From a virus, in the IMG/VR virus record IMGVR_UViG_3300008259_005427, positions 1-23,404 of that record: 23,404 bases of DNA; one strand, given 5' to 3'. Made by a program: the position numbers and the translations under genes. This document shows, in pieces, positions 3,903-23,404 of the stretch (the stretch's first letter is position 1; each line of letters opens with the position of its first letter). Below the pieces are notes generated by a model that ran no database searches, was not told the origin of the DNA, and saw nothing but the letters and a program-made list of their open reading frames with translations.

Positions 3903-4898
3903 TTATACTTTCCAAAAAGAATATATTCCTTTATCTAATTCGTAAGTTGGCCAAACAAATCTTCCCCTAATTGGTTGTTGTTTTGCCCAATCCCACATTT
4001 TAATTAAACCTTCTTTTAAATTAGTTTGATGTTTAAATCCAAGTATATCAATCGATTTTTGGAAAGTTGGAATTGAATGTTTTACTTCATGTCTTCCTTC
4101 TAAATGAATAATTTCACCTGCCCCCATAACTTCTCTTAAAATCTCTGAAGCATATTTAATTGAAATTTCTTCAATACCCCCCAAGTTAATAATTTGTTTT
4201 GATGCTTCAGGTCTAATTGCTGCATTCCAAAGTGGTTCTAATGAATCATCAATGAATGAAAATGCACGAGTTTGTTCTCCATCACCAAAAATAGTCATTG
4301 GTTCTCCATTCAAATGTTGATACATCCAAATACCTAATACATTTCGGTATTTATCCCAAATATTTTGTTTAATACCATAAACATTGTGTGGTCTGATGAT
4401 TGTCCAATCTAAACCATGCTGTTCCCCAGCGATTTGAATATCCATCTCACAACCATATTTTGCAACTCCATATGGATCAATTGGTTTTGGGATTTGATCT
4501 TCATCAAATATTCCACCATATCCATGACCATATACCGCAAGTGTTGATGTAAACATTAATCGTTTAACATCATGCTTAATACATTGATTTATAATTCTTG
4601 CAGTTGCTACTAAATTATTTTCATAATTATATTGTCTAATAAAGGGTGATAATCCTTCTGCAGCATATGCTGCAAAATGGAATACATAATCAAATTTATG
4701 AATTTCAAAACAATTTTCAATTGGATGGCTAACCAAATTCATCTGCCAGAATTCTACCTTTGGATTTATATTTTCTTTATACCCACCACTCAAATCATCT
4801 ATACCTACCACTTTAATTTTTGGGTGATTTTCAATTAACCAATCCGCAAGTCTACTTCCAAGTAATCCTGCCACCCCTGTAATTAATACTTTATTCAT
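3903..4898 (-). CDS. NAD-dependent sugar epimerase/dehydratase (GalE-like)
   Basis: Extended short-chain dehydrogenase of normal length (331 aa). The NAD-binding GxxGxxG is GVAGLLG (residues 8-14) after strand KVLITG; IDDLSGG (33-39) follows the second strand as in GalE. The catalytic triad is visible: S118/T119 in FTSTLAVYG, and Y143-x3-K147 in YGVAK. IIRPHNVYG is the usual substrate-pocket segment. It should interconvert or dehydrate a nucleotide sugar in the cytoplasm, for use by the glycosyltransferases encoded upstream. Exact substrate cannot be told. It is the last gene of the cluster, coupled to the GT2 gene by an 8-base overlap, and is preceded by AAAGGA, one of the few Shine-Dalgarno-like sites here. 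Confidence 0.88.
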   Translation of the reverse strand: MNKVLITGVAGLLGSRLADWLIENHPKIKVVGIDDLSGGYKENINPKVEFWQMNLVSHPIENCFEIHKFDYVFHFAAYAAEGLSPFIRQYNYENNLVATARIINQCIKHDVKRLMFTSTLAVYGHGYGGIFDEDQIPKPIDPYGVAKYGCEMDIQIAGEQHGLDWTIIRPHNVYGIKQNIWDKYRNVLGIWMYQHLNGEPMTIFGDGEQTRAFSFIDDSLEPLWNAAIRPEASKQIINLGGIEEISIKYASEILREVMGAGEIIHLEGRHEVKHSIPTFQKSIDILGFKHQTNLKEGLIKMWDWAKQQPIRGRFVWPTYELDKGIYSFWKV

Positions 4899-5679
4899 AT
4901 TTTATTCCTTTTATATTTGTATTATTTGGTTTATGTGAATTATTTTGATGTCTAATAGGCCCAAACCCCCACTTATATTCAAACATTTCAGCTGCAGTTT
5001 GTTCACTTTGGGTAAATTTTTCCTTTTCATTGCCATTTTTAGTAGCCATACTACCAAAATGATAAAATGCTAATTTTTGCGATCTTATAAATTTTATATC
5101 AATCATTTCTAATTTTAAAAAGAAATCCCAATCACATATAAATGGGGATGGATACCAAGTATCAAATCCTCCAACAGCCATATAATATTTTTTTTGCATA
5201 AAAAATGGAAATATTTCACCATTTTCAGTTAATTCTTCCTTTCTAAATTTTGGTTCAGTTAATAGATATTCATCTAATTTAAAATCATTTACTCCTCCAA
5301 AATTTTTAGTTATGAAATTAAATATACTGGGGGATTTTTCTATTTGATTGGGGGAAATAACTAATTTGTCTGTTTTATCTTGGGATAAAATAGAATCCCA
5401 ATTCATAGGGAAAACATTATCATCGTTTACTACTAAAATCCATTCACTAGAAGCATTATATACTCCAATATTTAAGGAATACTGCATTCCCATATTTTGA
5501 CTTAAAGGTAGGAAATAGACCTTATTCTTATATTTCTCAACAACATAAGAAGATTCTTCAGCAAAACCATCTAATACAACAATAATTTCATTAGTGTTAG
5601 ATTGAGTTTTTAAAACTGATTCTAAACATATATCCAAACATTTTGGATTTCTATACGAGGGGATAATTACAGATATCAT
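4891..5679 (-). CDS. Glycosyltransferase family 2
   Basis: Starts with the canonical GT2 strand MISVIIPSYRNPKCLDICLE, followed by EIIVVLDG (31-38) and the metal/nucleotide-sugar motif VVNDDNVFP (DDN at 86-88). YMAVGGFDTWYPSPFICDWD matches the acceptor-side GG-[FY]-D region and the E/D-D-x-D catalytic-base area. The length (262 aa) suits a single GT-A domain without membrane anchor. It transfers a sugar from an NDP donor to an unknown acceptor in the cytoplasm. It overlaps the upstream gene by 29 bases and sits between another GT-like gene and the epimerase. Confidence 0.85.
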   Translation of the reverse strand: MISVIIPSYRNPKCLDICLESVLKTQSNTNEIIVVLDGFAEESSYVVEKYKNKVYFLPLSQNMGMQYSLNIGVYNASSEWILVVNDDNVFPMNWDSILSQDKTDKLVISPNQIEKSPSIFNFITKNFGGVNDFKLDEYLLTEPKFRKEELTENGEIFPFFMQKKYYMAVGGFDTWYPSPFICDWDFFLKLEMIDIKFIRSQKLAFYHFGSMATKNGNEKEKFTQSEQTAAEMFEYKWGFGPIRHQNNSHKPNNTNIKGIKYE

Positions 5680-6343
5680 TCCAATTAATTAAAGGGGTTA
5701 ACCATTTTGTTTCTCCATGTGTTGAATATCCTGGAAGTGGTGTTATCAATGTACGACCTTTATCTCGAAGTTCCAAGAACATTTGAAAATCATATGGGTG
5801 AGTTCCAGATGTATATTTTCTAAGAATTCCTTCATCTGATCGTAAGGTTTTAACTTTGGAAGCAAAAGTCATAGTAGTAGAATTAGTTAATTTCCAGTGA
5901 CAATTGTTAGATAGAAATACTCTAGTAATTTCTCCTCCATTCTCTACAAAAGGATTTCCTCCATCAATATACTTATCAGGATGATCATATAAAGACACGT
6001 AGCTTGCCCCTATCTCAAATCCTTCATTTAAGATAGAATAGGAATTAGGTTTGTGCAAGTAATCATTTTCTAAAAAATAAACAATTTCGTTATCTTCTAA
6101 CTTTAGAGCTTCATCTAAAGCCAAATTAAAAGTTCCGGCTCCATGTCCAACATTTACTTGTTGTACGTTGGACTGATACTTTAAAATTATTCTTTCTGTT
6201 TCTTTTGAAACATTATCTGCTATTACTAACCAATCGGCATCTTTAAATATTTGGGTAGCATTTTTCAAACAATTTTCATTATTAACATACTCAGGTTTTA
6301 CTTTATTATAACCTGTGTCTGATATTCTATATATTATTTTCAT
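5651..6343 (-). CDS. Probable GT-A-type glycosyltransferase, 230 aa
   Basis: Begins MKIIYRISDTGYNKVK. A GT-A-like strand with a D-x-D-type site follows (VYFLENDYLHKP, END at residues 92-94). Later come WKLTNSTTMTFA (pocket), HPYDFQMFLEL (possible catalytic-base helix) and GYSTHGETKW near the C-terminus, where the His could contact metal. From memory, proteins with this start and the END-Y motif occur in bacterial polysaccharide clusters and in marine phages. The exact family is not assigned. It is coupled to the GDPD-like gene by an ATGA overlap. Confidence 0.65.
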   Translation of the reverse strand: MKIIYRISDTGYNKVKPEYVNNENCLKNATQIFKDADWLVIADNVSKETERIILKYQSNVQQVNVGHGAGTFNLALDEALKLEDNEIVYFLENDYLHKPNSYSILNEGFEIGASYVSLYDHPDKYIDGGNPFVENGGEITRVFLSNNCHWKLTNSTTMTFASKVKTLRSDEGILRKYTSGTHPYDFQMFLELRDKGRTLITPLPGYSTHGETKWLTPLINWNDICNYPLV

Positions 6344-6774
6344 TTTTTATATTTTTTTATATAATCACTACAAATTCCTAGGCATTTAGAAACATCATCA
6401 TTGTAAACTTCAGGCATTACAGCAATACTCCCTTTAATTGGTTGTTTGCCCGGATACACCCACATATATTGTTTAGATGTTAATGTAAGTGTATCATCTT
6501 CATGCCAAAAGTAATGTAATATTGTACTTCTAATCCAATTTAATAGTTCTACATTTTTGCAATGTATCCATAACTTATCAGCTCTGGTGCTTAGCCATTT
6601 ATCATCTATTTCATAGTGAGGCGCATCGTGTCCTAAGTATGTTCTACCATCGACACACCACATATCAATTTCAACATCATATCCTAATTTGATAGCAGAA
6701 TCAATGTATGGAGGATAGTTTTCATATTCCTCTATTTTTCCATTTATATTTCCTCTATGTGATATTAATATCAT
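6340..6774 (-). CDS. Minimal GDPD-like protein, 144 aa
   Basis: The first half carries the glycerophosphodiester phosphodiesterase (GDPD) core: H6-R7-G, E19-N20, E35-x-D37 (YDVEIDMW) and LGHD with H49. These are the residues that bind metal and perform general acid/base catalysis in the TIM-barrel family. The protein is only 144 residues, against about 240 or more for typical GDPDs, so later strands of the barrel are missing or reduced. It could hydrolyse a phosphodiester in a teichoic-acid-like or lipid-derived glycan, or be a non-catalytic relative. ATGA overlaps on both sides tie it to the neighbouring transferase genes. Confidence 0.65.
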   Translation of the reverse strand: MILISHRGNINGKIEEYENYPPYIDSAIKLGYDVEIDMWCVDGRTYLGHDAPHYEIDDKWLSTRADKLWIHCKNVELLNWIRSTILHYFWHEDDTLTLTSKQYMWVYPGKQPIKGSIAVMPEVYNDDVSKCLGICSDYIKKYKK

Positions 6775-7463
6775 CTATATGCTTTATGATTTCCAATTTC
6801 CATTACTGAAATGTTATTTTTATCTATATGTTTTCGTAAAACATATTCTCCGCAAATCCCCATATTTGGATTATTACCAATTATATAATCTATATGGTTA
6901 AATGTGTCTGAGTATATATCCATAATTTGGGAGCTTGAGTACCCCAATGAATCTAAGTATCCATTTACATTATCAAAACATCCTGTAGCTACCCATAAAT
7001 GATTATTATCCAATTCATTTAAATTTAATGGTCCACTAGGAATTGCCATATCAAATCTAATTCTAATAACCCAATCATATATAAAATTATTTTCGTATTC
7101 GTATTGTTTTTTAAGTTTATTAGATTCATGTATTGAATAAAACATACTGCATAAATGATCACTTTTAATACCTAACATTAATCTACTACCCCATTTATCG
7201 GATTCAAAATATTTTTGGGGCTCTATTATATATTTCTTGGGTTGGTATAGATTAACCATAGTTTCCATTAGATTAGATGGGATTTTATCTCCCATTATCC
7301 CCCCACCTCCACTTTTAAAATGTTGGCCCACCATAGTTGATGTGTCCCAAGTATGTATAAACACATCAGGATTTAAATCATCTATTAGATTGGGTTTCAT
7401 AGATTCATAGTAACATGTTTCTAAAAATCTAGCTTGTCCTGATAGACATAGTGCTACTTTCAT
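6771..7463 (-). CDS. Sugar-transferase-like protein with MKVALCLSGQ start, 230 aa
   Basis: The N-terminal strand and loop MKVALCLSGQARFLE, followed by DVFIHTWD (33-40), is a pattern I associate with a group of viral and bacterial glycan-cluster proteins. WVIRIRFDMAIP (R134-x-R136-F-D138) probably forms the GT-A-type metal/nucleotide site at the end of a strand. A glycine-rich loop (SGGGGIMG, 51-58) lies between. No membrane segment. It probably transfers a sugar, but the donor and acceptor are unknown. A 15-base gap separates it from the methyltransferase gene upstream. Confidence 0.6.
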   Translation of the reverse strand: MKVALCLSGQARFLETCYYESMKPNLIDDLNPDVFIHTWDTSTMVGQHFKSGGGGIMGDKIPSNLMETMVNLYQPKKYIIEPQKYFESDKWGSRLMLGIKSDHLCSMFYSIHESNKLKKQYEYENNFIYDWVIRIRFDMAIPSGPLNLNELDNNHLWVATGCFDNVNGYLDSLGYSSSQIMDIYSDTFNHIDYIIGNNPNMGICGEYVLRKHIDKNNISVMEIGNHKAYR

Positions 7464-7478
7464 TAGGTGTGATTTAAA

Positions 7479-8177
7479 TTACTTTATTATATAGGCTGTA
7501 GGACAATGATAATTTAAGGATTTTATTTGTAAATTTTTTTCCTCTATAAATCTATCAACTCCCCGGGATTCACTCCATTTGTGATAACCATATTCATCAA
7601 ACACAATAATTCCCCCTTTTGTTACATTATCCCATAAATTATTTAAAGTATCATATGTTGGTTGTTCCAAATCTAAATCCATATACAGTAAAGATATCTT
7701 AAATCCAGGATTGTTTTCGGAAAAATGTTTACTAGTTATTGATATATCCCCTTGAATTAATTCAAATTCAGATTTTTGGAAACCATGTGATATAATTTGA
7801 TTATGTAGCACATCTGCAGATGATTCATTGTGTTTAAAATTTCTACCTTCAAATAATACTCCCATTGCTTCTTTATCAATTTTATCTTTTATAGAAGATA
7901 TTAAAGTATCAGTATTGAAGAAATCAAAACCAATTACTTTTTTTGAACTATTAGGATTAAAAATATTTTTTAATTTTAAAAAGGTATATAATCCTGTTCC
8001 TTTAAATACCCCACATTCAACAATATCTCCAGGAATATCTTGAGTTTGATTGTAAAGTAATGTTCGAGCTATTAGTTTATTAAAAACTCGTCTATCCTCA
8101 CTTAATATGAAAGAATTAAAGCTATCAAAAATAACTTGTGATGTTTGGGAAATTTCTAAATTGTCTATTTTTATCAT
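7479..8177 (-). CDS. TylF/MycF-like sugar O-methyltransferase
   Basis: Class I SAM methyltransferase of the TylF/MycF family (Pfam TylF). The SAM loop is VECGVFKGTG (53-62); VIGFDFF (81-87) ends strand two. The LLYMDLDLEQPTYDTL segment (D167, D169) and GGIIVFDEYG (D194) hold the metal-binding aspartates typical of TylF. TylF and MycF methylate hydroxyls of deoxysugars, so this enzyme likely adds a methyl cap to a sugar made or transferred by the cluster. Length (232 aa) is close to the family norm. It overlaps the HAD-nucleotidyltransferase gene by four bases. Confidence 0.85.
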   Translation of the reverse strand: MIKIDNLEISQTSQVIFDSFNSFILSEDRRVFNKLIARTLLYNQTQDIPGDIVECGVFKGTGLYTFLKLKNIFNPNSSKKVIGFDFFNTDTLISSIKDKIDKEAMGVLFEGRNFKHNESSADVLHNQIISHGFQKSEFELIQGDISITSKHFSENNPGFKISLLYMDLDLEQPTYDTLNNLWDNVTKGGIIVFDEYGYHKWSESRGVDRFIEEKNLQIKSLNYHCPTAYIIK

Positions 8178-9526
8178 GATTTGTAATTTTCTAAGTAATA
8201 TTTTAAATCTTCAGGAGTACCTAATCCCCACATTTTAGAAACATTAAACGTTCTAATATGTTTTTTATCTTTAATAGCTTCATTAAACACAGGACAAACA
8301 TAAAATTCATTATTTACTCTAATATTTTTTTCAATCATTTGCTCTGCATATTTTACAAAATCAGAACCATGTTTCCAATAATAAAATCCAACAGTTGCAA
8401 TATTTGATATTGGTTTCTTTTCAGCCACTTCAGTCACCAATCCATTTTCATCCACTTTAGCAAAACTCCATTTTGGGTGTGTAGCTGGAAAAGAAACAAT
8501 TCCTCCATCAGAATTTGTTTCTTGCATTTTATACATAAATTCATTTGAATCCCATTCTACAAATTGGTCTGAATTAGCAAAAAATAAAGGAGCATCTGAA
8601 TCAATATATTTTTTAGATAATAATGCAGTACAAGCAGCTCCCTCAGTTAATTCATTAGTTTCAACTATTTTACATCCTGGGGTTAGTAAATTTAAAAGGG
8701 TATCTAGATTGTATTTTTCCCGATGTGATTTTTGAACTACATAAATGTAATTAGCATCTAAATTTAGATTTTCAATTACTACTTGAATCATGGGCTTACC
8801 ATTTACTTCAATTAATGGTTTAGGAAAAGTATAGCCAGCTTGCTCAAAACGACTTCCCGCCCCAGCCATAGGGATTAAAACATTTAATTTTTCATTTTTC
8901 CATTTAGGAGTCATATTTATTTGATTATTTAAGTATTTGTAAATGTTATTATATGTAATATCTTTCGGGGATTCAACCCTCATTACGTGAGATTTTGATC
9001 TATTTGCTGCTAATAACCCAAATGGTGAATCTTCAATTATTAATGTTTCTTCAGGTAAACACCCCATCATTGAAATAGCTTTCCAATATATTTCGGGGTG
9101 GGGTTTACTGTTTTGGACATCCTCATTAGATAATATCAAATCAAAGCGATCAATAATATCCAATCTTGATAAAACAGTTAAGACTGTTTTACGAATGCTA
9201 TTAGAACATACTGCTAACTTATACCCACTTTGAATTAACAAATCCATACATACTTGCAGTTGTGGGGATGGTTTTAATTCTTTTAAGGATTTTAATGTGT
9301 AATATTGTTTTTTATCCCATACTTGTTTAAAAAGTTCTTGAGGTAGTCCTTTTTTGATATGTAACATTTCTAGCTTCTGATTGGTTTTGAGCCCATCATA
9401 TGTTAATAAGTGTTCATCCCAATTAATGGCAAACTGTGGGTCAAGAGCTTTGTTTAATGACTCATAATGTATATTTTTTGCTTCAACTAATACACCATCA
9501 AGATCAAATATAACTAACTTAATCAT
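8174..9526 (-). CDS. HAD phosphatase fused to sugar nucleotidyltransferase, 450 aa
   Basis: Two domains. Residues 1-195 form a HAD phosphatase: motif I FDLDGVLVE (D8, D10), motif II CSNS (107-110), the lysine in NSKPHPE (K141) and motif IV IIEDSPFG (163-170). From about 214 a nucleotidyltransferase follows: VLIPMAGAGSRF (216-227), then FPKPLIEVNGKP and the metal-site strand FFANSDQFVEW. Such a pair can dephosphorylate a sugar phosphate and activate the product as an NDP-sugar, similar in logic to the Hdd enzymes of heptose activation, though those act through separate genes. The product presumably feeds the neighbouring transferases. It overlaps the GT9 gene by four bases. Confidence 0.85.
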   Translation of the reverse strand: MIKLVIFDLDGVLVEAKNIHYESLNKALDPQFAINWDEHLLTYDGLKTNQKLEMLHIKKGLPQELFKQVWDKKQYYTLKSLKELKPSPQLQVCMDLLIQSGYKLAVCSNSIRKTVLTVLSRLDIIDRFDLILSNEDVQNSKPHPEIYWKAISMMGCLPEETLIIEDSPFGLLAANRSKSHVMRVESPKDITYNNIYKYLNNQINMTPKWKNEKLNVLIPMAGAGSRFEQAGYTFPKPLIEVNGKPMIQVVIENLNLDANYIYVVQKSHREKYNLDTLLNLLTPGCKIVETNELTEGAACTALLSKKYIDSDAPLFFANSDQFVEWDSNEFMYKMQETNSDGGIVSFPATHPKWSFAKVDENGLVTEVAEKKPISNIATVGFYYWKHGSDFVKYAEQMIEKNIRVNNEFYVCPVFNEAIKDKKHIRTFNVSKMWGLGTPEDLKYYLENYKS

Positions 9527-10413
9527 TGCCTCAAATTTATTATTTTACTAATAATTTCATTATCTGTTAAATATGGATCTAACACAATGTGCCCATCATG
9601 GGGAAAATAATAAATAGGGCCTAATTTAGGTTCCTTTATTTTTTTCAATACCCCATTCCACCCATACAATTGATGAATAAAATCACCTGTTAATATCGTT
9701 TTGCATCCTACTCCCGCAGCTAAATTTGCCAATCCACCTTCAGTGCCAATAAAAGCGTCACATGCTTTAAGCAATGAAGCTTCAAATGTTAATGATTTAG
9801 AATCATCATCACTAATATTTGAAGTTTGATATTGTGATAAGTTACCCATACCAATTGGCACCAATGTAAAATGATTAATTAGTTCATTTACAATATACTG
9901 CACATTTCGATGGCTCCCTCCATATCCTAGATTAGGAACATCAATACCTTTTTTATATTGGTCTGGGGTGAATAGATATGTTTTGGGTTCCCAATTAGTC
10001 ATTACCCCAATAACAGGTTTGTTATGTTCTTTTTTTAATTGTTCAACATATTCTTTAGCTATTAAATCATATTGGGGTAAAGTATATATTTTATACTCTG
10101 CGGTTGTATCCGTAAATCCTGCAAATTGTTGATATTCTTCACAGGGAGTTACAAGATAATTTAAGGGTTGCAATTGTATTACACGTGAATACTCCTCCTG
10201 TAAGTGTTGACTGGTGGGGTTTGGACTTGGGGTGTCGGAAACAAATACCTTATGAATTGAGGGATCATTCTCTAATAATGCTTTCATTTGAGGAAAACCA
10301 ATTAAATAATCTACCTGATTATATTGGTTGGCTAATTTAGGGGCTAATGAGGTGGAAAACATAATATCACCAAAATAACCATAGGTAATTACTAAACATT
10401 TAGTATTTTGCAT
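9523..10413 (-). CDS. Glycosyltransferase family 9 (heptosyltransferase-like)
   Basis: GT-B protein of about 296 residues from the preferred start ATG 10411-10413. That start places the typical GT9 strand CLVITYGYFGDIMFSTSLAP right at the N-terminus. The frame stays open up to an earlier ATG at 10485, which would add 24 charged residues without a place in the fold and overlap the neighbour by 86 bases. The C-terminal domain shows VIGVMTNWEPKTY and the donor-site segment FIGTEGGLANLAAGVGC, where GT9 enzymes normally have DSG-P-hAA. Family members transfer heptose or other sugars from NDP donors to LPS-type acceptors. Acceptor here unknown. Confidence 0.75.
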   Translation of the reverse strand: MQNTKCLVITYGYFGDIMFSTSLAPKLANQYNQVDYLIGFPQMKALLENDPSIHKVFVSDTPSPNPTSQHLQEEYSRVIQLQPLNYLVTPCEEYQQFAGFTDTTAEYKIYTLPQYDLIAKEYVEQLKKEHNKPVIGVMTNWEPKTYLFTPDQYKKGIDVPNLGYGGSHRNVQYIVNELINHFTLVPIGMGNLSQYQTSNISDDDSKSLTFEASLLKACDAFIGTEGGLANLAAGVGCKTILTGDFIHQLYGWNGVLKKIKEPKLGPIYYFPHDGHIVLDPYLTDNEIISKIINLRQ

Positions 10414-10771
10414 AGCTCTTTTCTTCTCTAAACTCAGAACCGTACTTTTCATTAATTTGTTTTTTAGTATCCGCTCGTTTATCATTTGTGATATAAACTA
10501 ACCGAGCTAATTCGATGAATTGATTATCAAATTCTGCATTTTTTTCTTTTACTCGGATATCATCTTCAATTTCCCATAACAACTGATTTATATGTAATAA
10601 TTCATCGTAATCAGTTAGAGATATTTTTAATTCATTAAATACAATATCTAGCAAATATGAATATTCCTTTTGAATATTTTCAAGCTTCAATTGATCATCA
10701 ATATACTTTTTTTTAAGTGCAAGTATTGTAAGTTTATCAACAATCTCACCTATAGATACTTCTATTTTCAT
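10400..10771 (-). CDS. DUF6165-like protein, 123 aa
   Basis: Helical protein beginning MKIEVSIGEIVDKLTILALK, with LLWEIEDDIRVKE in the middle and YITNDKRADTKKQINEKYGS near the end. These match my memory of the DUF6165 family, often found beside GT9 or other glycosyltransferases in LPS/capsule loci of bacteria and phages. The biochemical role is not known. It overlaps the GT9 gene by 14 bases and the GT7-like gene by 26 bases, so it is certainly part of the same message and may act with one of them. Confidence 0.8.
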   Translation of the reverse strand: MKIEVSIGEIVDKLTILALKKKYIDDQLKLENIQKEYSYLLDIVFNELKISLTDYDELLHINQLLWEIEDDIRVKEKNAEFDNQFIELARLVYITNDKRADTKKQINEKYGSEFREEKSYAKY

Positions 10772-11489
10772 ATTTAAAATTTTTAATTTTTAGCCAACGT
10801 ACCCCATCTGCATCATATTCATTTACCTCTGCAGTTACTTGTTTGTATCCTAAATCTAATGTATTTTTTAAATTTGCCAATAGGTAATGATTATTAATAA
10901 AATCATTATCATTATCAGCTGGTTTGTTATCAGTATGATATAACCCTAAGAAAGTTCCATCTGTGTTGCGTTTCCATTTATATCCTAATAAACGCAATCT
11001 ATCTCTAGTATCATCATCTTCTTTCCCCCATCCTACATAATAGGGATTAAATCCATTCATTTTATAAAATAAATCACGATGAATAACAAATACCCCCCCA
11101 GAATGGTCCCCTACTGTAATGTGAAAATTTTGATATCCATTTGGTATATCTGAGATTTTTCGTTGTTGGTTGTTTTCGTCTAGAAAAATAACATTATTTA
11201 TAGGATATAAAGGGACATCACACGTTGTATCATATGAAACATTATCTGTTGGATAATAATCAACATCATGGAATATTAATAATTCTCCTTTTGATTTTTG
11301 GGCTGCTAAGTTATATAATGAATTTTTTTGAAATTTTTCATCATTGTCTTGTTCAGCTATAATTATTTCATATGATTTACCATTAAATACCTCAGCTAAC
11401 TTAGGTAATAGCATAGAAAGATGAGATTCTCTATTTCGGTAAGAAATAATTATAGAATAATTAACGTTTGAATCCTGGTATTCTATCAT
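10746..11489 (-). CDS. Galactosyltransferase-like GT-A enzyme (GT7-like), 247 aa
   Basis: GT-A enzyme: YSIIISYRNRESHLSMLLPK (11-30) opens the fold, and LLIFHDVDYYP carries the D-V-D metal site (75-77). GVFVIHRDLFYKMNGFNPYY followed by GWGKEDDDTRDRL (153-165) closely resembles the WGxEDDD-xxxR motif that in beta-1,4-galactosyltransferases (GT7) holds acceptor-binding and catalytic acidic residues; H185 in YHTDN matches the third metal ligand region. No signal anchor precedes it, unlike Golgi enzymes. It probably transfers galactose or N-acetylgalactosamine from a UDP donor; donor identity is inference. Confidence 0.82.
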   Translation of the reverse strand: MIEYQDSNVNYSIIISYRNRESHLSMLLPKLAEVFNGKSYEIIIAEQDNDEKFQKNSLYNLAAQKSKGELLIFHDVDYYPTDNVSYDTTCDVPLYPINNVIFLDENNQQRKISDIPNGYQNFHITVGDHSGGVFVIHRDLFYKMNGFNPYYVGWGKEDDDTRDRLRLLGYKWKRNTDGTFLGLYHTDNKPADNDNDFINNHYLLANLKNTLDLGYKQVTAEVNEYDADGVRWLKIKNFKYENRSIYR

Positions 11490-12237
11490 ATTGATGCACT
11501 ATTGAGTATTGGTTAATGTTATTTAAATTAAATTGAACTAATCCTGCATTTATAACATGTAAGTGAATTGCTAAATTATTTTTTAAATCTGTAAATATAG
11601 TTTTATCTTTGTATTTAGTTTGAATTAAATAGTTATAAGATGTTTGATCTGCTACTTTATATTTTCCTACAGACATTAAATAAATGTCAGCACATATATT
11701 TTTTATTAATTCATAATTACCACCAAATACACCGACATTGTAAACAGGTTTATCTAACAGTGTTTGTAATCCTATTATTCCTAAGTTATAATGAATATGA
11801 GCTTTATTCCATTCCTCATTTTCATATATAATTTCTTCACTTGTAGCTGTTATAAAAGAAGATGATAGTAAATCAAATGGATTATTATTAAAATAAATGT
11901 CTTTTATATCCGTTATTAATACTTTATCATACACATTATCTTGTAAAAAATTCCATATATGAAAAAATCTAATATTATGAATTAAATCATATGATGTGTT
12001 AAAATCACATATACCGGTGTTAAAATTAAATATATTTTTATCATTACCCCAAAAATCAAAATTAGGGATAATTATATCTATGTTATTTATCTTTAAATAT
12101 TCTTCTAACCCGTTATTAGAGGAATTATATAATAATAGTACTCTATCACAATTTTCCCAATTAGATGTATCCACCCAATTTTCCAAATCTTTTGGGGAAT
12201 AATTCCCACTAATTGCTCCTATTAGTAAATTTTTCAT
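11461..12237 (-). CDS. Putative GT-A nucleotide-sugar transferase, 258 aa
   Basis: The start MKNLLIGAISGNYSPKDLEN and the central VLITDIKDIYF (D110-I-K-D113) resemble nucleotide-diphospho-sugar transferases in which D-x-x-D or D-x-D binds the metal. Later NVGVFGG (167-173), DQTSYNYL (197-204) and a C-terminal IVHQYDR follow the order seen in several GT-A families: pocket, catalytic Asp and metal-binding His. A precise CAZy family cannot be given. No transmembrane helix. It overlaps the GT7-like gene by 29 bases and ends one base from the dehydrogenase gene. Confidence 0.65.
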   Translation of the reverse strand: MKNLLIGAISGNYSPKDLENWVDTSNWENCDRVLLLYNSSNNGLEEYLKINNIDIIIPNFDFWGNDKNIFNFNTGICDFNTSYDLIHNIRFFHIWNFLQDNVYDKVLITDIKDIYFNNNPFDLLSSSFITATSEEIIYENEEWNKAHIHYNLGIIGLQTLLDKPVYNVGVFGGNYELIKNICADIYLMSVGKYKVADQTSYNYLIQTKYKDKTIFTDLKNNLAIHLHVINAGLVQFNLNNINQYSIVHQYDRIPGFKR

Positions 12238-12238
12238 T

Positions 12239-13057
12239 TTAAATAACTGCTCGGCCTTTCATTTTTTCCCAATCTCTATTTTTACGAACTTCATTATTGG
12301 TTTTTTGGGTTGCTTCTAAAACATTATTAGTTGTTCCCAGTTCTTCCGTAAGATATAAAAGCGCAGATAAATCCTTAGGAAAACAGTGTCCCCCAAATCC
12401 AAAATCACCATCATGACCTGGAACTCCCCAATGTGATTCTCCTAATCTTTCATCCATAGTTGCATATTCTATTACTTTATCATAATCAGCACCTACTTTT
12501 TCACATAATTGATATATTTCATTTGCAAAAGAAACTTTTACTGAAAGAAATGTATTAGTCACATATTTAACCATTTCAGCATAAGTTGAATCAGTTTTAA
12601 TAATATGTGCCTTTGGAAATACCTTTGAGAATATCTGTTTCAATTCCGTAGTTGTCGGTCTTGGTCCACCTAATATAATGCGGGTTTGATTTTGATAATC
12701 ACTCACTGCATTTCTTTCAGTCAAAAACTCTGGGTTGAATACAATATTGGTTTTGTATTTCTCATTCCATTTTTCCGTACTCATTGGTGGAACAGTTGAT
12801 TTAACTATAATACCTTTGGTCTCACCAATCTCGTTGATTTCTTTAATAACTCCCTCAACAATGTCGGTATTACAGGACCCATCTGGGTTCATTGGAGTTG
12901 GTAAACAAACGAATACATAATCACATCTCGCCACATCCTCAAATGATGTGTTTCGTTCCATTGGATTCAAATCGAATACCCGTACATCGTAATACTTTTT
13001 GAACTTTTGGTAAACAGCATTACCTACAAAACCTTGACCTACTATCCCTAATTTCAT
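12239..13057 (-). CDS. Shortened UDP-glucose/GDP-mannose dehydrogenase-like protein
   Basis: The NAD site GQGFVG is at residues 7-12, followed by VCLPTPMNPDGSC. Middle-domain residues EMVKYVTNTFLSVKVSFANE (K164, N168) and the catalytic cysteine C225 in FGFGGHCFPKDL are present, so both NAD-dependent oxidation steps that turn UDP-glucose into UDP-glucuronate could occur. At 272 residues it stops soon after the central helix and lacks the C-terminal UDP-sugar-binding domain (families run to about 390-450). It may use a different partner or substrate-binding mode, or be a reduced viral enzyme. It is coupled to the GT2 gene by an ATGA overlap. Confidence 0.82.
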   Translation of the reverse strand: MKLGIVGQGFVGNAVYQKFKKYYDVRVFDLNPMERNTSFEDVARCDYVFVCLPTPMNPDGSCNTDIVEGVIKEINEIGETKGIIVKSTVPPMSTEKWNEKYKTNIVFNPEFLTERNAVSDYQNQTRIILGGPRPTTTELKQIFSKVFPKAHIIKTDSTYAEMVKYVTNTFLSVKVSFANEIYQLCEKVGADYDKVIEYATMDERLGESHWGVPGHDGDFGFGGHCFPKDLSALLYLTEELGTTNNVLEATQKTNNEVRKNRDWEKMKGRAVI

Positions 13058-13680
13058 ATTATTTCGTAAAATTTATTTTGTTTTTCTTGTCTTTCGATAT
13101 CTTTGGGGTGATATAAAGAAAATTCTTCTTGTGGTGGTAAAGCTACATAAGTTTTGAATCCATCCAACCTTTCATGAACTTTATTTACCCATTTTATTTC
13201 AGGTTTATTTTTCCAGATTCTCCATTGGTAATCAGGATAATTAACCCATCCTTGTTCATTAACATTCCATCCCCATTTTTGAATATGTGCTTCAGTTAAA
13301 CCTTCTACAGTATTAACTCTTGGCGTTAGATACACTTCGGTTTCAGCGTTTGACTCTAGTATGGTAGGTAATATGGAAATTAGATATTCATTTGGAAATT
13401 CATCGGCATCTATTTGAAAAATATAATCACCTGTACATTGTTTGGTTATATAATTTTTTAATTCTGAAAAGTTGTTTTTGAATTCAAATGAATGCCATCT
13501 GAATGGAGACTCAGAAACTGTTCGGGATTTCAAATATTGTTCCACTTGAGAACTACCATTCGAACTATCGTATACAACCACAATTTCATCTCTATCTCTT
13601 TTGTATTTTTTGAGTTTAAATAAAAGTCTATCTAGCTCAACTAATTCGTCTTTAACAGTTATAGCGTATGAAATTTTCAT
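13054..13680 (-). CDS. Glycosyltransferase family 2 (WaaE-like)
   Basis: Compact GT2 enzyme of 208 residues: ISYAITVKDELVELDRLL opens the fold, DEIVVVYDSS (31-40) binds the nucleotide, and FQIDADEFPNEYL carries the D-A-D site (91-93). NFSELKNYITKQCTGDYIF and the end WVNKVHERLDGF match the LPS-core GT2 enzymes of the WaaE/KdtX type, where the HER segment near the end is conserved. Those add glucose to lipid-A core sugars; here the acceptor is unknown. Overlaps of four bases at both ends show strict co-transcription. Confidence 0.85.
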   Translation of the reverse strand: MKISYAITVKDELVELDRLLFKLKKYKRDRDEIVVVYDSSNGSSQVEQYLKSRTVSESPFRWHSFEFKNNFSELKNYITKQCTGDYIFQIDADEFPNEYLISILPTILESNAETEVYLTPRVNTVEGLTEAHIQKWGWNVNEQGWVNYPDYQWRIWKNKPEIKWVNKVHERLDGFKTYVALPPQEEFSLYHPKDIERQEKQNKFYEII

Positions 13681-14015
13681 AGTATTTTATTTAAAACTTT
13701 TAACCTAAATTTATCCCAACGAGTCATTTTATTTCTATTCCAAACATTTTTATCAGATAAAACTTCAGCTAACATACGTAAGTATCCTCTAAGAAACAAA
13801 AAATCCCAAGAATAGACATGAAAGTATTTTTGGGTTGTTTTGTTGGGTAGTAATAAATCTGCTTCAAATAATGAATAAGTTCTAAGATTATACACTATTT
13901 TGAAGATACTAAAACTAAAATAGCTTCCTGCCCCACTCCAATCAATATAGAGAGGGGAGAAAGCTATATTAACTCTTCTAAATTTCCAAGATATTTTTTC
14001 TAAAAACCTTTGCAT
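13677..14015 (-). CDS. Hypothetical basic aromatic protein, 112 aa
   Basis: No family recognised. The protein is rich in F, Y, W, R and K (RFLEKISWKFRRVNIAFSPL, later KYFHVYSWDFLFLRGYLRML). The hydrophobic segments are short and mixed with charges, so a true membrane span is doubtful; peripheral membrane binding is possible. Its place inside the glycan cluster, with an ATGA overlap to the GT2 gene, suggests an accessory role in the same process. Confidence 0.6.
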   Translation of the reverse strand: MQRFLEKISWKFRRVNIAFSPLYIDWSGAGSYFSFSIFKIVYNLRTYSLFEADLLLPNKTTQKYFHVYSWDFLFLRGYLRMLAEVLSDKNVWNRNKMTRWDKFRLKVLNKIL

Positions 14016-14021
14016 TGTATT

Positions 14022-14465
14022 TTATTCGGGTAACACCCCAATATACGACAAAGCCTCTATAAAGTCACGTTCTTCAAAGTGTTTTATTGTAGACATGTCT
14101 GCTCTGTACTTGGCATTTTTAAATTTTTTCTTTTCTTCTTTATCAACAGGTACAGATTTTACACCTGCCCATCTCCAATTATCTCTACCTGTACCATCTG
14201 CAAATACCATACCTTTTTCTTCTACGTTGATAAAGGAGGGCATCCAAACTTTACCTGTTTCTTCCTCTTCTTCCATTAGAGATTTGTATAAATCTGGGAG
14301 TAAAGCTAGTTGTTCAGCAAAGAATTCAGTTTCTGGTTTCATTAATGAGTGAGATTGAAATCCGCACCCATAACAAAATTCAAGTTTAACTTCAGAGGTT
14401 ACTTCTTGAACGTAGCAGGCGTCACTTCCACACCTGCTACATTCTGTTAATCCATCGTATTGCAT
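14022..14465 (-). CDS. Zinc-ribbon protein, 147 aa
   Basis: The N-terminal 35 residues form a zinc ribbon: C9-SR-C12 and C31-YG-C34, with an extra C17. The rest is acidic and helical (LLPDLYKSLMEEEEETG) followed by a beta-rich segment (VWMPSFINVEEKGMVFADG) and a final helix EERDFIEALSYIGVL. No enzyme motif. It is unlikely to be a sugar enzyme although it lies between glycosyltransferase genes. It may be a regulator or a structural cofactor; from memory similar zinc-ribbon proteins occur in marine T4-like phages. Confidence 0.65.
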   Translation of the reverse strand: MQYDGLTECSRCGSDACYVQEVTSEVKLEFCYGCGFQSHSLMKPETEFFAEQLALLPDLYKSLMEEEEETGKVWMPSFINVEEKGMVFADGTGRDNWRWAGVKSVPVDKEEKKKFKNAKYRADMSTIKHFEERDFIEALSYIGVLPE

Positions 14466-14466
14466 A

Positions 14467-15759
14467 TTATTCTATTTTTTTAAGTTTGGGTAAGGTAATT
14501 TTAGGTAAAACCAATTCTACCTGTTTTGGAAAATTCGGAACATTTTTTTCTAATAAATTAGAGATTAGTTCTTGCATTTTTTCAAAACTAAAATTACTTT
14601 TAGAGTATTGTTTTTGTTGTTTACCACCTAAAACATATTGTTTGTACTTAGTATATGAATCTTTTAAATGTCTTCCAATTTCAACTGTACTGGGTTTAAA
14701 CCATTGGCTTTCTTTCATTAACCAGTCGTTAGCCGCACTTGGGTGAACATTTTCTAATTCTCCGGCAATTAAAGTACTTAGGTTTTGTTTTAAGAAATCT
14801 GTGTGGCCAGACCATCCTGATGCTATGATTGGTTTACCTGTAAAACTAAATTCTAGTAATGGTCTACCAAATCCTTCACCTTTAGTAAAGCTAACCATAG
14901 CTTTTACTTTTGGGTGATTGTATAGTTCATTCATTTCACTATCACTAAACTCTCCGTTTAGAACATAAATGTTAGGTAAATTTGTAGAATTTACAGACTC
15001 TCTAATAATTTTAATTCTATCTAGAATTTCATCTCGGCTAATGTAAGAGGCAATACCAATTGAAGCCTTTAAAATTAGAGCTGGTTTTTGGGGTTTGTCT
15101 TTAAATACTTCATAAAAAGATTTAATTAATAAAGATACATTTTTTCTATCATGCCCAAAATCACCTTGCATCCAATGTCCTACAAACAAATAACAGAACG
15201 ATTCTTTAATTTCATCTAAATTAATTGTTTTAATTTCCTTAGGTTCAATTAATTTGTAAACATCTAATTTAGCGCCTTCAAAAACTACCTCAATTGGTTT
15301 TTCTAGTTGGGTATAACCTTCAACTGCATTAGTTTGTTTATTTCTTCTTTCGTATTTGCTATTTTCAAAAGTTTGTTTAGAAAAATTGGATGAAACCCAA
15401 TTTGTATTCATTCTATTTAAACCTTCAACCCATTCAGCTCGACATAAACTAGATTCAATACCTGCGGTTACCCCAATGTTATATTTTCCAACTGGTTGAA
15501 ATTCATTAGGAATTGAAATTTGCATCCAAATATCAGGTTTTGAAGGTAAATTAGGAGTATCTAATCTATATTGATGAAGATGACTCCATTCAGAATTATC
15601 TTCACAAAATCCCCATGCTGTGCTTCCCCATCTTTGGGGTAAAAGTTTTACATCATATTTGTCTAGATTTAAAATTGCTTGGATAATATCTCTAGCTCTA
15701 GCCCCATATCCTGAGTAAGTGTCATATGGGCTGCTAATTACAAAAACTGGTTTATTCAT
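14467..15759 (-). CDS. Glycosyltransferase family 4, 430 aa
   Basis: GT-B enzyme. The N-terminal acceptor domain opens with the glycine-rich SGYGARARD (16-24). The C-terminal donor domain contains LFVGHWMQ (191-198), VSLLIKSFYEVF, LPNIYVLNGEFSD and the nucleotide-sugar segment GEGFGRPLLEFSFTGKPIIA (294-313) with the E-x7-E type glutamates. It transfers a sugar with retention from an NDP donor. The final 40 residues are lysine/proline rich and may extend beyond the catalytic fold. It overlaps the upstream GT4 gene by a single base, and the two may act one after the other or as a pair. Confidence 0.88.
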   Translation of the reverse strand: MNKPVFVISSPYDTYSGYGARARDIIQAILNLDKYDVKLLPQRWGSTAWGFCEDNSEWSHLHQYRLDTPNLPSKPDIWMQISIPNEFQPVGKYNIGVTAGIESSLCRAEWVEGLNRMNTNWVSSNFSKQTFENSKYERRNKQTNAVEGYTQLEKPIEVVFEGAKLDVYKLIEPKEIKTINLDEIKESFCYLFVGHWMQGDFGHDRKNVSLLIKSFYEVFKDKPQKPALILKASIGIASYISRDEILDRIKIIRESVNSTNLPNIYVLNGEFSDSEMNELYNHPKVKAMVSFTKGEGFGRPLLEFSFTGKPIIASGWSGHTDFLKQNLSTLIAGELENVHPSAANDWLMKESQWFKPSTVEIGRHLKDSYTKYKQYVLGGKQQKQYSKSNFSFEKMQELISNLLEKNVPNFPKQVELVLPKITLPKLKKIE

Positions 15760-17198
15760 TAATAAAATAATTTATGTGGTAAAAACTTTCCTTTGTACTC
15801 TGTAGCATTGGTAATCTCGTACTTTTCTTTAGGTTTCCAAGTTGAAAACAAAGTATCAAATGCTTCCATAACTCTTTCAGCTTGTACTTCAGAGGTAAAT
15901 CCTGCTTCTTCTCCAATTGCCCATTCTCTACCTTTTAATCCTCTTGCTTTACGTTCTTCTCTAGACAAATTGTAGATTTCTTTAATTCTTTCAGTTGCAT
16001 CTTCCCATCTACATCTATCATCATAAATGTAAGGGGTTTGTGGAGAACCTTGAATTGATCTAGAAGTTGGATAAACTGGGAATGCCCACTCTCCATGTTT
16101 TTGGAGTGTACCTGTATGGTTTGAAGGGAAATCTGCAGATGGGGTAAACCATTTTCCGTCTTTAGTTTCAAATCTTATTTGATCCTGCATTCCACCTGTA
16201 ACATTTGCAATAACCGGAGTACCTGCTAAAATTGCTTCGGTTAATGTTAATCCCCAACCTTCATTAGAAGTTAACAATATTTGAGCATCTGCAATATTAT
16301 ACAAATAATTAAGTTGGATTGAAGATAACTTTTGAGTTGAAAATTTAACAGCATTAGGATAACTTTCATCAAAGAAATACTCTTTAACTTTTCTTAAATC
16401 TGTACCATGATCACTTACTTCTTCAGTATGTAATACTATTTTACACTTATCAGCTTTTTCTTTAGGTAAGCTATCTAAGAATGCTCTAAAAGCTAACATT
16501 GCATCTGGAATTTGTTTTCTTCTAATGTTACGGGAGTTAAAGAACAAAACAAAATCAGGATTATCGTTTCCAAAGAAATCTTTTTTAAATTTCTTTAATT
16601 CAGGATCATTTTCTTCTATTGGACGATAAACTTTATGATTTAAACCATGAGGAATATATCTAAATAGTTTATTCTTTCCTTTATCTCCTAAAACTAGCTG
16701 GTTAATGTTTACAGTTTGTTTTGAGATTCCCATCAATAAATCACAAGCCTCATAATATGGTCTGTTATACATTGGAGCTGGGTAATCATCCCAAATATTT
16801 AAGTAAGTAATGGGAATATTTTTTCTAATTTCTTGCTCAATGTTAAACAACCAAACAAAATATCTTGGGTCTGTAATTAGCATTATAGCATCAGGTTTTT
16901 CTAATTTAATTACCTGACGTAAAAAATCAGCATCACCATACCCATTAGTAGGATACATCATAACATAAGCATCTTCAATACCTGCTATTTGATTACTGTC
17001 TGCGCTTAGATCTAATTTTTTACCTTGATCTGGGTGGTTAATAGCACCCCCAATATTAACCCAATTAAAGTGGTGACAAGTGTGAGTTACAATTTCTCTA
17101 GCAACTGTTGCTACTCCAGAATGAACTCTAATATCATCACAAATTAAAACGATTTTTTTTCTTTTATCCTTAGGGATATAATCAAAACTTTTATTCAT
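15759..17198 (-). CDS. Glycosyltransferase family 4, 479 aa
   Basis: First gene of the glycan cluster. KIVLICDDIRVHSGVATVAR (15-34) is the GT-B N-terminal strand and acceptor loop. The donor domain has YIPHGLNHKVYRP (181-193), LFFNSRNIRRKQIPD (218-232) and SNEGWGLTLTEAILAGTPVI (311-330), where the E-x7-E pair binds the nucleotide sugar, followed by the NVTGGMQDQ loop. The enzyme should be soluble and retaining. It starts nine bases after the stop of the ribbon-helix-helix gene, with an A/T-rich leader and no Shine-Dalgarno. The specific sugar is unknown. Confidence 0.88.
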   Translation of the reverse strand: MNKSFDYIPKDKRKKIVLICDDIRVHSGVATVAREIVTHTCHHFNWVNIGGAINHPDQGKKLDLSADSNQIAGIEDAYVMMYPTNGYGDADFLRQVIKLEKPDAIMLITDPRYFVWLFNIEQEIRKNIPITYLNIWDDYPAPMYNRPYYEACDLLMGISKQTVNINQLVLGDKGKNKLFRYIPHGLNHKVYRPIEENDPELKKFKKDFFGNDNPDFVLFFNSRNIRRKQIPDAMLAFRAFLDSLPKEKADKCKIVLHTEEVSDHGTDLRKVKEYFFDESYPNAVKFSTQKLSSIQLNYLYNIADAQILLTSNEGWGLTLTEAILAGTPVIANVTGGMQDQIRFETKDGKWFTPSADFPSNHTGTLQKHGEWAFPVYPTSRSIQGSPQTPYIYDDRCRWEDATERIKEIYNLSREERKARGLKGREWAIGEEAGFTSEVQAERVMEAFDTLFSTWKPKEKYEITNATEYKGKFLPHKLFY

Positions 17199-22197: not shown

Positions 22198-22493
22198 TAT
22201 TCTCCAGTTTTAATTCTTGCTAAAATTTGATTTTCAGGTCCTACATAATATTCCTCGTTATCAAATGGGAACTTTGTAAATCCCATAGTAGGCAATACTA
22301 CTCTATCTCCCACTTTTACTGTAGTGGGAATGAAATTACCGGTAACTGAATATTTACCTGGTCCTACAGCTACAACAGTAGCGGTTTCATTTTTTTCTTT
22401 ACCTAAATCAGGTACAATGATGTTTCCAAAAGTAGTTTCCTCAGTTTCCTGTGGTTTAACTATAACGGCATCAAATAATGCTTCTAAGCTCAT
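22197..22493 (-). CDS. groES: Co-chaperonin GroES
   Basis: 98 residues, normal GroES length. The N-terminal strand LFDAVIVKPQETEETTFGNI leads to the mobile loop, which carries the hydrophobic tripeptide IIV (25-27) that docks on GroEL. The roof and core segments VVAVGPGKY, VKVGDRVVLP and the end QILARIK are typical. This is a GroES with the bacterial length, unlike T4 gp31, which is a diverged functional substitute. It is coupled to groEL and overlaps the upstream unknown gene by 23 bases. Confidence 0.95.
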   Translation of the reverse strand: MSLEALFDAVIVKPQETEETTFGNIIVPDLGKEKNETATVVAVGPGKYSVTGNFIPTTVKVGDRVVLPTMGFTKFPFDNEEYYVGPENQILARIKTGE

Positions 22494-22788
22494 GTGTGTA
22501 TTCTTTTATTTCGTTTGTAATAGTTTCATAATTTTTTAAGTATTCATCTAGAGAATTAAAATCACCAATCCCTGCCCTTAACTCCGCAATTCGGGTTAAA
22601 GCCATTCCTAAGTTGGGAACATAAAATAGAGATTTTTCGTATACTTTAGCTTTACCACTAGATTTAAAGTGATCAGTATCCGAGGTAACTCTTTCCTTTA
22701 TTGTAAAACAATAGTCATCTACTGTAATAAAGAATGGTTCTAGCTTAGGATCTCTAAGAGTTTGGTTTGTTTTTCGTTTTCTTAACAT
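22471..22788 (-). CDS. Hypothetical protein upstream of groES, 105 aa
   Basis: Basic N-terminus (MLRKRKTNQTLRDPK), then a beta-like section (PFFITVDDYCFTIKERVTSD), and a helical end (NLGMALTRIAELRAGIGDFN, then LKNYETITNEIKEYT). The layout of strands followed by a helical 'AL-x-xI' segment recalls the DUF5405 phage family, but this is only a weak resemblance from memory. It overlaps groES by 23 bases and is the first gene after a 63-base gap. Function unknown. Confidence 0.65.
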   Translation of the reverse strand: MLRKRKTNQTLRDPKLEPFFITVDDYCFTIKERVTSDTDHFKSSGKAKVYEKSLFYVPNLGMALTRIAELRAGIGDFNSLDEYLKNYETITNEIKEYTHELRSII

Positions 22789-22801
22789 TATAACTTCTTT
22801 T

Positions 22802-22809
22802 TAAATATA
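22802..22809 (-). promoter_or_regulatory. Candidate -7 box TATATTTA upstream of the groES operon
   Basis: The minus strand carries TATATTTA 14 bases before the start of the 105-residue gene. There is no TTTG at 19-21 bases; the nearest lies 30 bases upstream, just before an inverted-repeat arm. A promoter here would separate the groESL-clamp loader unit from hsp20. Confidence 0.25.
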
Positions 22810-22817
22810 ACCTAAAG

Positions 22818-22840
22818 ATAATAAAATAATACGCTGGGGC
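22818..22840 (-). repeat. Inverted repeat flanking hsp20, left arm
   Basis: Read on the minus strand, GCCCCAGCGTATTATTTTAT pairs with the plus-strand arm at 23314-23337. Over 24 aligned columns there are 22 identities, one gap and one mismatch. It lies 12 bases after the hsp20 stop. It stands out as G/C-rich (GCCCCAGC) in an A/T-rich region. Confidence 0.6.
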
Positions 22841-22851
22841 AAAGGGATTTT

Positions 22852-23259
22852 TTACTTTATCTTTAAAACTTTCGGTTTAGCTTTTTCAGATGTAGGAATA
22901 GTAATTTCAAGTAAACCATTTTCTAGTTTGGCTTCTGCTTTACTCAAATCATATTTTGCTGAAATTTTGTAGCCTAGATCAAATGAACGTCTAGCTAAAC
23001 CTCTGTAAATTGTACCAGGATGAATTACTTCATCCTCTTCTGGTTTTTTGTAACTGATTTTTAGAATATCTTCTTCGATATTCACTTTTACATCTTCTTT
23101 TGTAAGACCGGTACACGCAACTTCAAAATGAAGTTTGTCGTCAGTATAAAAGATGTTTAGGGGGTGGGGTTGTTTTGCCGTTGCGGCTGAGAGAAATCCA
23201 CTTGACGGGTGGAAGAAATTGTGAAATAGGATGTCAAAATCATTAAATAGAGTACTCAT
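22852..23259 (-). CDS. Small heat-shock protein Hsp20
   Basis: 135 residues with an alpha-crystallin domain from about 35 to 122: LNIFYTDDKLHFEVACTGLT, then DVKVNIEEDILKISY and the signature KAEAKLENGLLEITIP (A-x-x-x-x-G-x-L). The C-terminal LKI (132-134) acts as the I-x-I motif that docks on neighbouring subunits. The N-terminal arm (FNDFDILFHNFFHPSSGF) has the phenylalanine-rich character of the family. It should form oligomers that hold unfolded proteins. Hsp20 is common in T4-like marine phages, where it is thought to help capsid assembly. No clear promoter was found; inverted repeats flank the gene. Confidence 0.93.
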   Translation of the reverse strand: MSTLFNDFDILFHNFFHPSSGFLSAATAKQPHPLNIFYTDDKLHFEVACTGLTKEDVKVNIEEDILKISYKKPEEDEVIHPGTIYRGLARRSFDLGYKISAKYDLSKAEAKLENGLLEITIPTSEKAKPKVLKIK

Positions 23260-23313
23260 AAGATATACGGTTTGTGATGTCCTAGGATCATCGGTTAAAC
23301 ATTAATTTAATAC

Positions 23314-23337
23314 GCCCCAGCTGTATTATTTGATTAT
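23314..23337 (+). repeat. Inverted repeat flanking hsp20, right arm
   Basis: Plus-strand GCCCCAGCTGTATTATTTGA continuing ATTAT matches the left arm at 22818-22840 in inverted orientation. The site also has a short self-complementary flank: AATAC (23309-23313) and GTATT (23323-23327) could form a small hairpin around GCCCCAGCT. It lies between the end of the upstream gene (23349) and the hsp20 start (23259), so it may serve as terminator, operator or recombination site. Confidence 0.6.
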
Positions 23338-23348
23338 ACATATAGTGT

Positions 23349-23402
23349 CTACTCGTTTCTTGCTACAAAGTATTCACTGTTTAGATCATCTGAATAGAAG
23401 TT
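23349..23402 (-). CDS. C-terminal end of an unknown gene, cut by the window edge
   Basis: From the right edge one minus-strand frame reads NFYSDDLNSEYFVARNE and ends with TAG at 23349-23351. The other two frames stop at once or within six codons. The 17 residues are too few to identify the gene. It is the expected upstream neighbour of hsp20, separated by about 90 bases. Confidence 0.35.
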   Translation of the reverse strand, partial: NFYSDDLNSEYFVARNE

Positions 23403-23404
23403 TA

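Follow-up and report, generated by a model that had tools for sequence, protein, structure and literature searches.

To our knowledge, few bacterial messages have been described whose two untranslated regions (UTRs) pair with each other. Long-range helices bracket a unit in rRNA processing stalks, which are cut by RNase III, and in the hok mRNA the ends of a short message pair, while a local 5′ hairpin can compete. RNA thermometers occur on some bacterial small heat shock genes. A paper on the icaR mRNA of Staphylococcus aureus (PMC3868564) describes a 5′ UTR-3′ UTR pairing that controls the message through the Shine-Dalgarno region, blocking translation; there the authors call this pairing a singular example and name the hok fold-back beside it. 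Another paper (PMC2864571) presents the manA RNA motif as a structured leader; the genes that follow it include ibpA chaperone genes, and it occurs in T4-like cyanophages and, for the most part, in marine metagenome sequences.

The window analyzed here, the whole stretch of DNA under study, is a virus record of 23.4 kb. Its T4-like clamp-loader genes (phrog_168 and phrog_225) are located, together with groEL, groES, and hsp20, on the minus strand. The hsp20 gene was identified by a match to PF00011 (E value, 9.2e−13). A reading of the sequence alone had claimed that an imperfect inverted repeat with one gap and one mismatch encloses this gene, and the repeat was confirmed as described: positions 22818 to 22840 of the plus strand read ATAATAAAATAATACGCTGGGGC, and a near reverse complement is found at 23314 to 23337, with one extra base at 23322 and one mismatch. 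As hsp20 is on the minus strand, the copy at 23314 to 23337 is the 5′ UTR arm and that at 22818 to 22840 the 3′ arm (Table 1). In the coding-strand RNA, the two strands of the predicted helix are AAUAAUAC-A-GCUGGGGC in the leader and GCCCCAGC-GUAUUAUU behind the stop codon. Three copies of GCTGGGGC are present in the window, the third (8859) away from hsp20. An ungapped search of the window with AATAATACGCTGGGGC, allowing up to three mismatches, gave no further match; the extra base in the second arm hides that arm from such a search. Between hsp20 and groES lies a gene (22471 to 22788) that overlaps the groES start and weakly matched phrog_154, labeled a replication initiation protein (3e−05). 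Positions 3903 to 17198 of the minus strand carry a long series of sugar-nucleotide, glycosyltransferase-like, and methyltransferase-like genes, as judged from their translations.

Table 1. Features in and around the hsp20 unit of the window
Feature	Positions	Strand	Remarks
Promoter-like TATATGTATAAT	23333–23344	−	Directly upstream of the 5′ arm, overlapping its outer end
5′ arm of predicted long-range helix, hsp20 leader	23314–23337	−	Bulged A at 23322; core GCUGGGGC at 23321–23314
Local 5′ UTR hairpin with bulged A (GAUG[A]UC-CUAG-GA-CAUC)	23276–23292	−	Covaries among relatives
hsp20, small heat shock protein, 135 aa, enclosed by the helix	22852–23259	−	
3′ arm of predicted long-range helix	22818–22840	−	Starts at the 12th base past the hsp20 stop codon; core GCCCCAGC at 22840–22833
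Downstream gene, 105 aa, weak phrog_154 match	22471–22788	−	Start 29 bases past the 3′ arm; outside the unit

Relatives of hsp20 were collected from viral contigs by scans with hsp20 queries and with groES. Using an HMM, hsp20 was found in 165 of 301 loci (three window loci were skipped), many of these coming from contigs that were present more than once. Left out were four loci in which a start or an edge was missing and six named-record loci (L248 to L253, the last a fecal record); usable flanks were present in 155 loci, which gave 79 distinct flank pairs and 34 representatives with <90% identity. Seven more distant relatives were added for a set of 41, in which L105 stands for the window. 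All 41 representatives of this T4-like phage lineage had one arm in the hsp20 5′ UTR and the other just past the stop codon, and in all 43 hits of one hsp20-query scan the arm pair was visible by eye. Examples are L130 (GCUGGAGC/GCUCCAGC), L127 (ACUCUAGGGC/GCCCUAGAGU), L219 (GCUAGAGCACG/CGUGCUCUAGC), L239 (ACUUUAGGGAG/CUCCCUAAAGU), L346 (GACAGGUCUC/GAGACCUGUC), and L348 (UUCACAGGCGGAAC/GUUCCGCCUGUGAA). The contiguous arm helix was ∼9 to 21 bp in length, frequently with a bulged A. When contiguous helices were listed for the set of 41, an A/T stretch was returned for L333 and the outer part of the helix for L130 and L135; their sequences and duplexes show the expected arms. The pattern TAATACN{0,2}GCTGGGGC gave at least 120 stretches across the collection, a number set aside as evidence since so short a pattern is expected often by chance. 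No match was returned by a nucleotide search of the phages collection, and genome_contigs searched with the hsp20 alignment contained no relative that could point to a host.

Among the 36 genes of the window, the flanks of hsp20 formed the strongest duplex (−33.0 kcal/mol). The runner-up (gene 4891 to 5679; −28.8 kcal/mol) was taken as chance, its flanks overlapping neighboring coding regions. Ranking by flank duplex placed hsp20 first in all 12 sources assessed (the window and 11 loci), where the 188 other genes had a mean of −12.8 compared with −31.6 for hsp20; when helix score replaced duplex energy, hsp20 was first in 11 of the 12 and second in L144. On the 173-kb contig of L151, for which genes of at least 70 codons were ranked and genes cut by the ends of nine pieces were excluded, hsp20 was first of 212 genes (−30.3; mean, −12.6; standard deviation, 4.1). 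The same element at many unrelated gene ends, which according to the sequence-only reading would make it a plain terminator, was not seen, and no other gene on the contigs tested had comparable flank pairing. Dinucleotide shuffles were as good as the arm duplex in 0 or 1 of 200 cases for 32 of the 34 representatives, the exceptions being L188 (7/200) and L229 (4/200); L105, near-identical to the window, beat 200 of 200. RNAfold predicted the arms of the window unit to be paired in both the MFE and the centroid structure (z, −3.46; 0/100 shuffles as good). Predicted core pairing probabilities for the full unit, which began 14 bases before the core at a start chosen by the analyst, were 0.84 to 1.0 in all 34 representatives at 10, 25, 37, and 45°C.

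Each 5′ arm was also compared with its own and with swapped 3′ arms. Mean energies were −31.6 versus −21.7 kcal/mol for the 41 representatives, with none of 20,000 permutations as good when relatedness was ignored; they were −30.0 versus −21.5 kcal/mol for the 34 representatives and −30.9 versus −22.0 kcal/mol for 14 clusters including the window, the observed sum being reached by 0 of 20,000 permutations in both. Related sequences inflate such permutation tests, and for only 13 of the 41 did the own arm outrank every swapped one. The arms of L346, L348, and L352 are unrelated in sequence to those of the window, yet they are still complementary. By parsimony on a tree of 33 sequences with a sequence-only alignment, from which L299 was dropped because it was misaligned, 14 both-side changes were counted in the 11-pair core, compared with 0 to 4 in slid registers. 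The same test gave 33 breaks and 85.2% of cells paired, partly because about one-third of the 3′ arms were out of register. Mismatches were counted in the best 12-base Watson-Crick pair of each sequence, chosen without regard to wobble (it differed from the core in L130, L105, L180, and L243 of the 34 listed). The 79 sequences, in which inherited changes are counted more than once, had 64 G·U, 6 A·C, and 34 other mismatches, and the 34 representatives alone had 25, 3, and 18, respectively. A DNA repeat has no reason to favor G·U on one strand, and the preference for G·U over A·C therefore points to the sense-strand RNA as the selected molecule. Overall, these sequence comparisons lend good support to the inverted repeat being the DNA of a conserved RNA helix that would join the 5′ UTR and 3′ UTR of hsp20 and is specific to this gene. 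Pairing of the two UTRs within one message, as in icaR-type regulation, is thus indicated here by comparison and prediction.

Thirty of the 76 occurrences of [CT]GTATA[AT]T were intergenic, though intergenic sequence makes up only ∼10% of the DNA, and 28 of these 30 were in the main coding direction. One lies just upstream of the 5′ arm, and many relatives have another close behind the 3′ arm, ahead of the following gene. With promoter-like motifs at both sides, the arms appear to bracket one probable transcription unit, and the 5′ arm, close behind such a sequence, is probably the very 5′ end of the message. After the 3′ core, positions 5 to 11 are U-rich (T, 0.59 to 0.78, and A, 0.12 to 0.29, compared with 0.36 and 0.38 in the flanks; 41 representatives), a tract that could simply be the complement of the A-rich outer 5′ arm. 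In relatives such as L139, L143, and L193, TTCGTATATT recurs 8 to 93 bases ahead of several genes, in the coding direction, resembling a phage promoter or leader motif.

In 40 of the 41 representatives the 5′ arm begins at −56 to −85 relative to the start codon, a placement that leaves the Shine-Dalgarno and start region outside the pairing. A bulged-A hairpin separates the arm from the start codon; its pattern matches 40 of the 41, L166 being without it. Its pairs were counted in the 16 sequences of the 4-bp type among the 34 representatives; alignment A2 misregistered 3-bp and 4-bp lower stems. All 96 cells were paired, both-side changes were present in four of the six pairs, and the covariation score was 0.701 versus 0.162 in shuffles (0/500 as high), while the bare count of pairs changed on both sides was not above shuffles (433/500 as high). 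A model of the hairpin identified 18 hsp20 leaders at an E value of <0.01 in 25 sources (nine were in the training set) and three weak matches elsewhere (E values, 0.07 to 0.93), with no match in L166 or the six named-record loci. Conserved bases flank the hairpin, including CACAAA in 16 of 16 sequences. The hairpin region could be a candidate protein- or ribosome-binding site.

A comparable leader was observed in cyanophage-type hsp20 loci, of which 22 were chosen among 80 listed of 351 found. All 22, read by eye, had a UUCG-loop hairpin with a bulge before hsp20. In the cyanophage leaders (L249 to L251 and the 22 sampled among L357 to L435) this hairpin stands shortly past a TAAATA sequence, which we take to be late-promoter-like. 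The 179-kb P-SSM3 record contains CCTTCGGGG once, immediately ahead of hsp20. The bulged-A and UUCG hairpins may be homologous. The long-range helix was not found in the 22 cyanophage-type loci, which served as a negative control and where 5 to 100 of 100 shuffles were as good (lowest in L430, with 5), nor in five named phages, where 9 to 124 of 200 shuffles were as good as the hsp20 arm duplex.

The gene neighborhood bears on whether the arms could act as DNA, either as inverted repeats at the ends of a cassette, mobile or invertible, or as paired operators, all of which had been raised from the sequence alone. In 28 of the 34 representatives, a member of one and the same gene family precedes hsp20, either directly or with one gene in between, and in 29 a relative of the 105-aa gene of the window lies downstream; in L166 and L299 other neighbors adjoin hsp20 and the arms are still present. 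In four relatives (L170, L171, L172, and L221) the genes on both sides are, by eye, the same, but hsp20 and both arms are absent, so that arms and gene come and go together, and none of the relatives examined, with or without hsp20, keeps only one arm. The cassette proposal gains from these empty sites and loses from the lack of a conserved repeat sequence, the arms of L346, L348, and L352 being unrelated; there is also no second gene between the arms. An invertible segment was not supported, as hsp20 and groES were on one strand in 68 of 68 groES loci having hsp20 (hsp20 was missing from 12 of 80 groES loci, 8 of which were too close to a contig end to judge). Paired DNA operators likewise found no support, given that the arms of distant relatives have no fixed common sequence and that mismatches are mostly sense-strand G·U rather than A·C. 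A DNA-level element is largely refuted by these data and is regarded as very improbable.

If the arms act in the transcript, each might still be an ordinary local hairpin of a terminator or leader, the two looking alike and their long-range pairing being a by-product. The earlier terminator suggestion holds to the extent that a U-rich tract follows the 3′ arm and that several 3′ arms fold locally before it (z, −4.1 in L138 and −3.73 in L200); for the many 3′ arms with a local hairpin, an ordinary terminator is possible. However, the local hairpin is weak on average (mean z, −1.55) and weak or absent in L105 (0.18), L139 (0.93), L348 (0.38), and L352 (1.09), all phages with a strong long-range duplex. 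In many relatives the 3′ stem has its stronger partner in the arm on the far side of the gene. The two arms evolve in concert, and no relative was seen to keep local hairpins while losing arm complementarity, which makes independent hairpins quite improbable. An RNA thermometer, in which heat would melt the structure and release hsp20 expression, is suggested by the presence of such elements on some bacterial small heat shock genes; it is scarcely credible here, as the predicted core pairing shifts by ≤0.06 from 10 to 45°C in each of the 34 representatives and the arm is away from the start region. The near-continuous helix brackets exactly one gene, as would an RNase III-type processing stem whose arms pair in a longer transcript and are cut on both sides to release the hsp20 message, and PMC3868564 reports that the icaR 5′-3′ UTR pairing yields an RNase III substrate. 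With a promoter-like sequence immediately ahead of the 5′ arm, however, the message appears to start there already, and processing of this kind seems unlikely. Translation control by refolding, where a local 5′ hairpin would form first and be displaced by the finished 3′ arm, altering ribosome access or delaying expression, has precedents in icaR and hok, which are discussed as such systems in PMC3868564. An exchange of partners may be possible at the 5′ arm, since its flanks form stronger pairing with their own than with swapped partners (36/20,000 permutations as good). Against refolding stand the distance of the 5′ arm from the start region, the intervening bulged-A hairpin (both in 40 of 41), and weak local 5′ folding (mean z, −0.80). 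Like RNase III processing, refolding is regarded as a real, though less likely, alternative to the closing helix.

The best explanation, which is given about an even chance of being correct, is a 5′-3′ closing helix that would protect the ends of the hsp20 message and help to form its 3′ end. The arms would pair within the hsp20 transcript, making the coding region the loop of a closed message with both ends double-stranded, and such ends would protect it from 5′-end-dependent and 3′ exonucleolytic decay. The helix would also help to define the 3′ end of the message, as the 3′ arm runs into the U-rich tract, and the bulged-A hairpin upstream of the start codon would be a second leader element. 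We infer these protective and 3′-end functions from the arrangement of the arms around the gene; end protection of a short, probably single-gene message, together with a role in 3′ end formation, appears to be the most economical function. More speculatively, and with a lower probability, hsp20 could be enclosed by a terminator split in two: the start of the transcript would provide the first half of the stem, and the 3′ arm with the U-rich tract the second. Polymerase would then terminate as the message paired with its own 5′ end, giving a closed, decay-resistant mRNA, and a local 5′ hairpin in these phages would hold until the 3′ arm appears.

The proposed closing helix is a UTR pairing kept through extensive sequence turnover in many phages and tied to a single gene, which makes it testable by compensatory mutations. 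If it sets message stability or 3′ ends, it would be a means by which a phage makes a message last, and an example of how strong RNA elements can escape searches for local structures. Among 4227 Rfam families, none matched window positions 22400 to 23404 at E values of up to 5, and at gathering scores none matched in any of 15 sources; a match would be hampered by the coding region that separates the halves of the helix. A literature search limited to open-licence papers, and so weak evidence of absence, gave no title on a helix closing hsp20.

Compared with the described systems, the hsp20 locus shares with the manA motif a structured leader of chaperone genes in T4-like phages and differs in matching no Rfam family. 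The cyanophage hsp20 leader has a hairpin like the bulged-A hairpin found here, but without the long-range helix. Like an rRNA processing stalk, the hsp20 helix brackets a unit; it encloses a coding region, and cleavage here is hypothetical. As in hok, the 5′ and 3′ ends of the message would pair and a competing local 5′ hairpin is possible, although hok is a toxin gene and hsp20 is not, and refolding at hsp20 is putative. The closest likeness in layout is to icaR, where the 3′ UTR and 5′ UTR of one message pair across the coding region as they are predicted to do in hsp20. The icaR pairing covers the Shine-Dalgarno sequence, whereas the hsp20 5′ arm begins, in 40 of the 41 representatives, 56 to 85 bases ahead of the start codon and is probably at the 5′ end of the message, and the hsp20 pairing is conserved by covariation across many phages.
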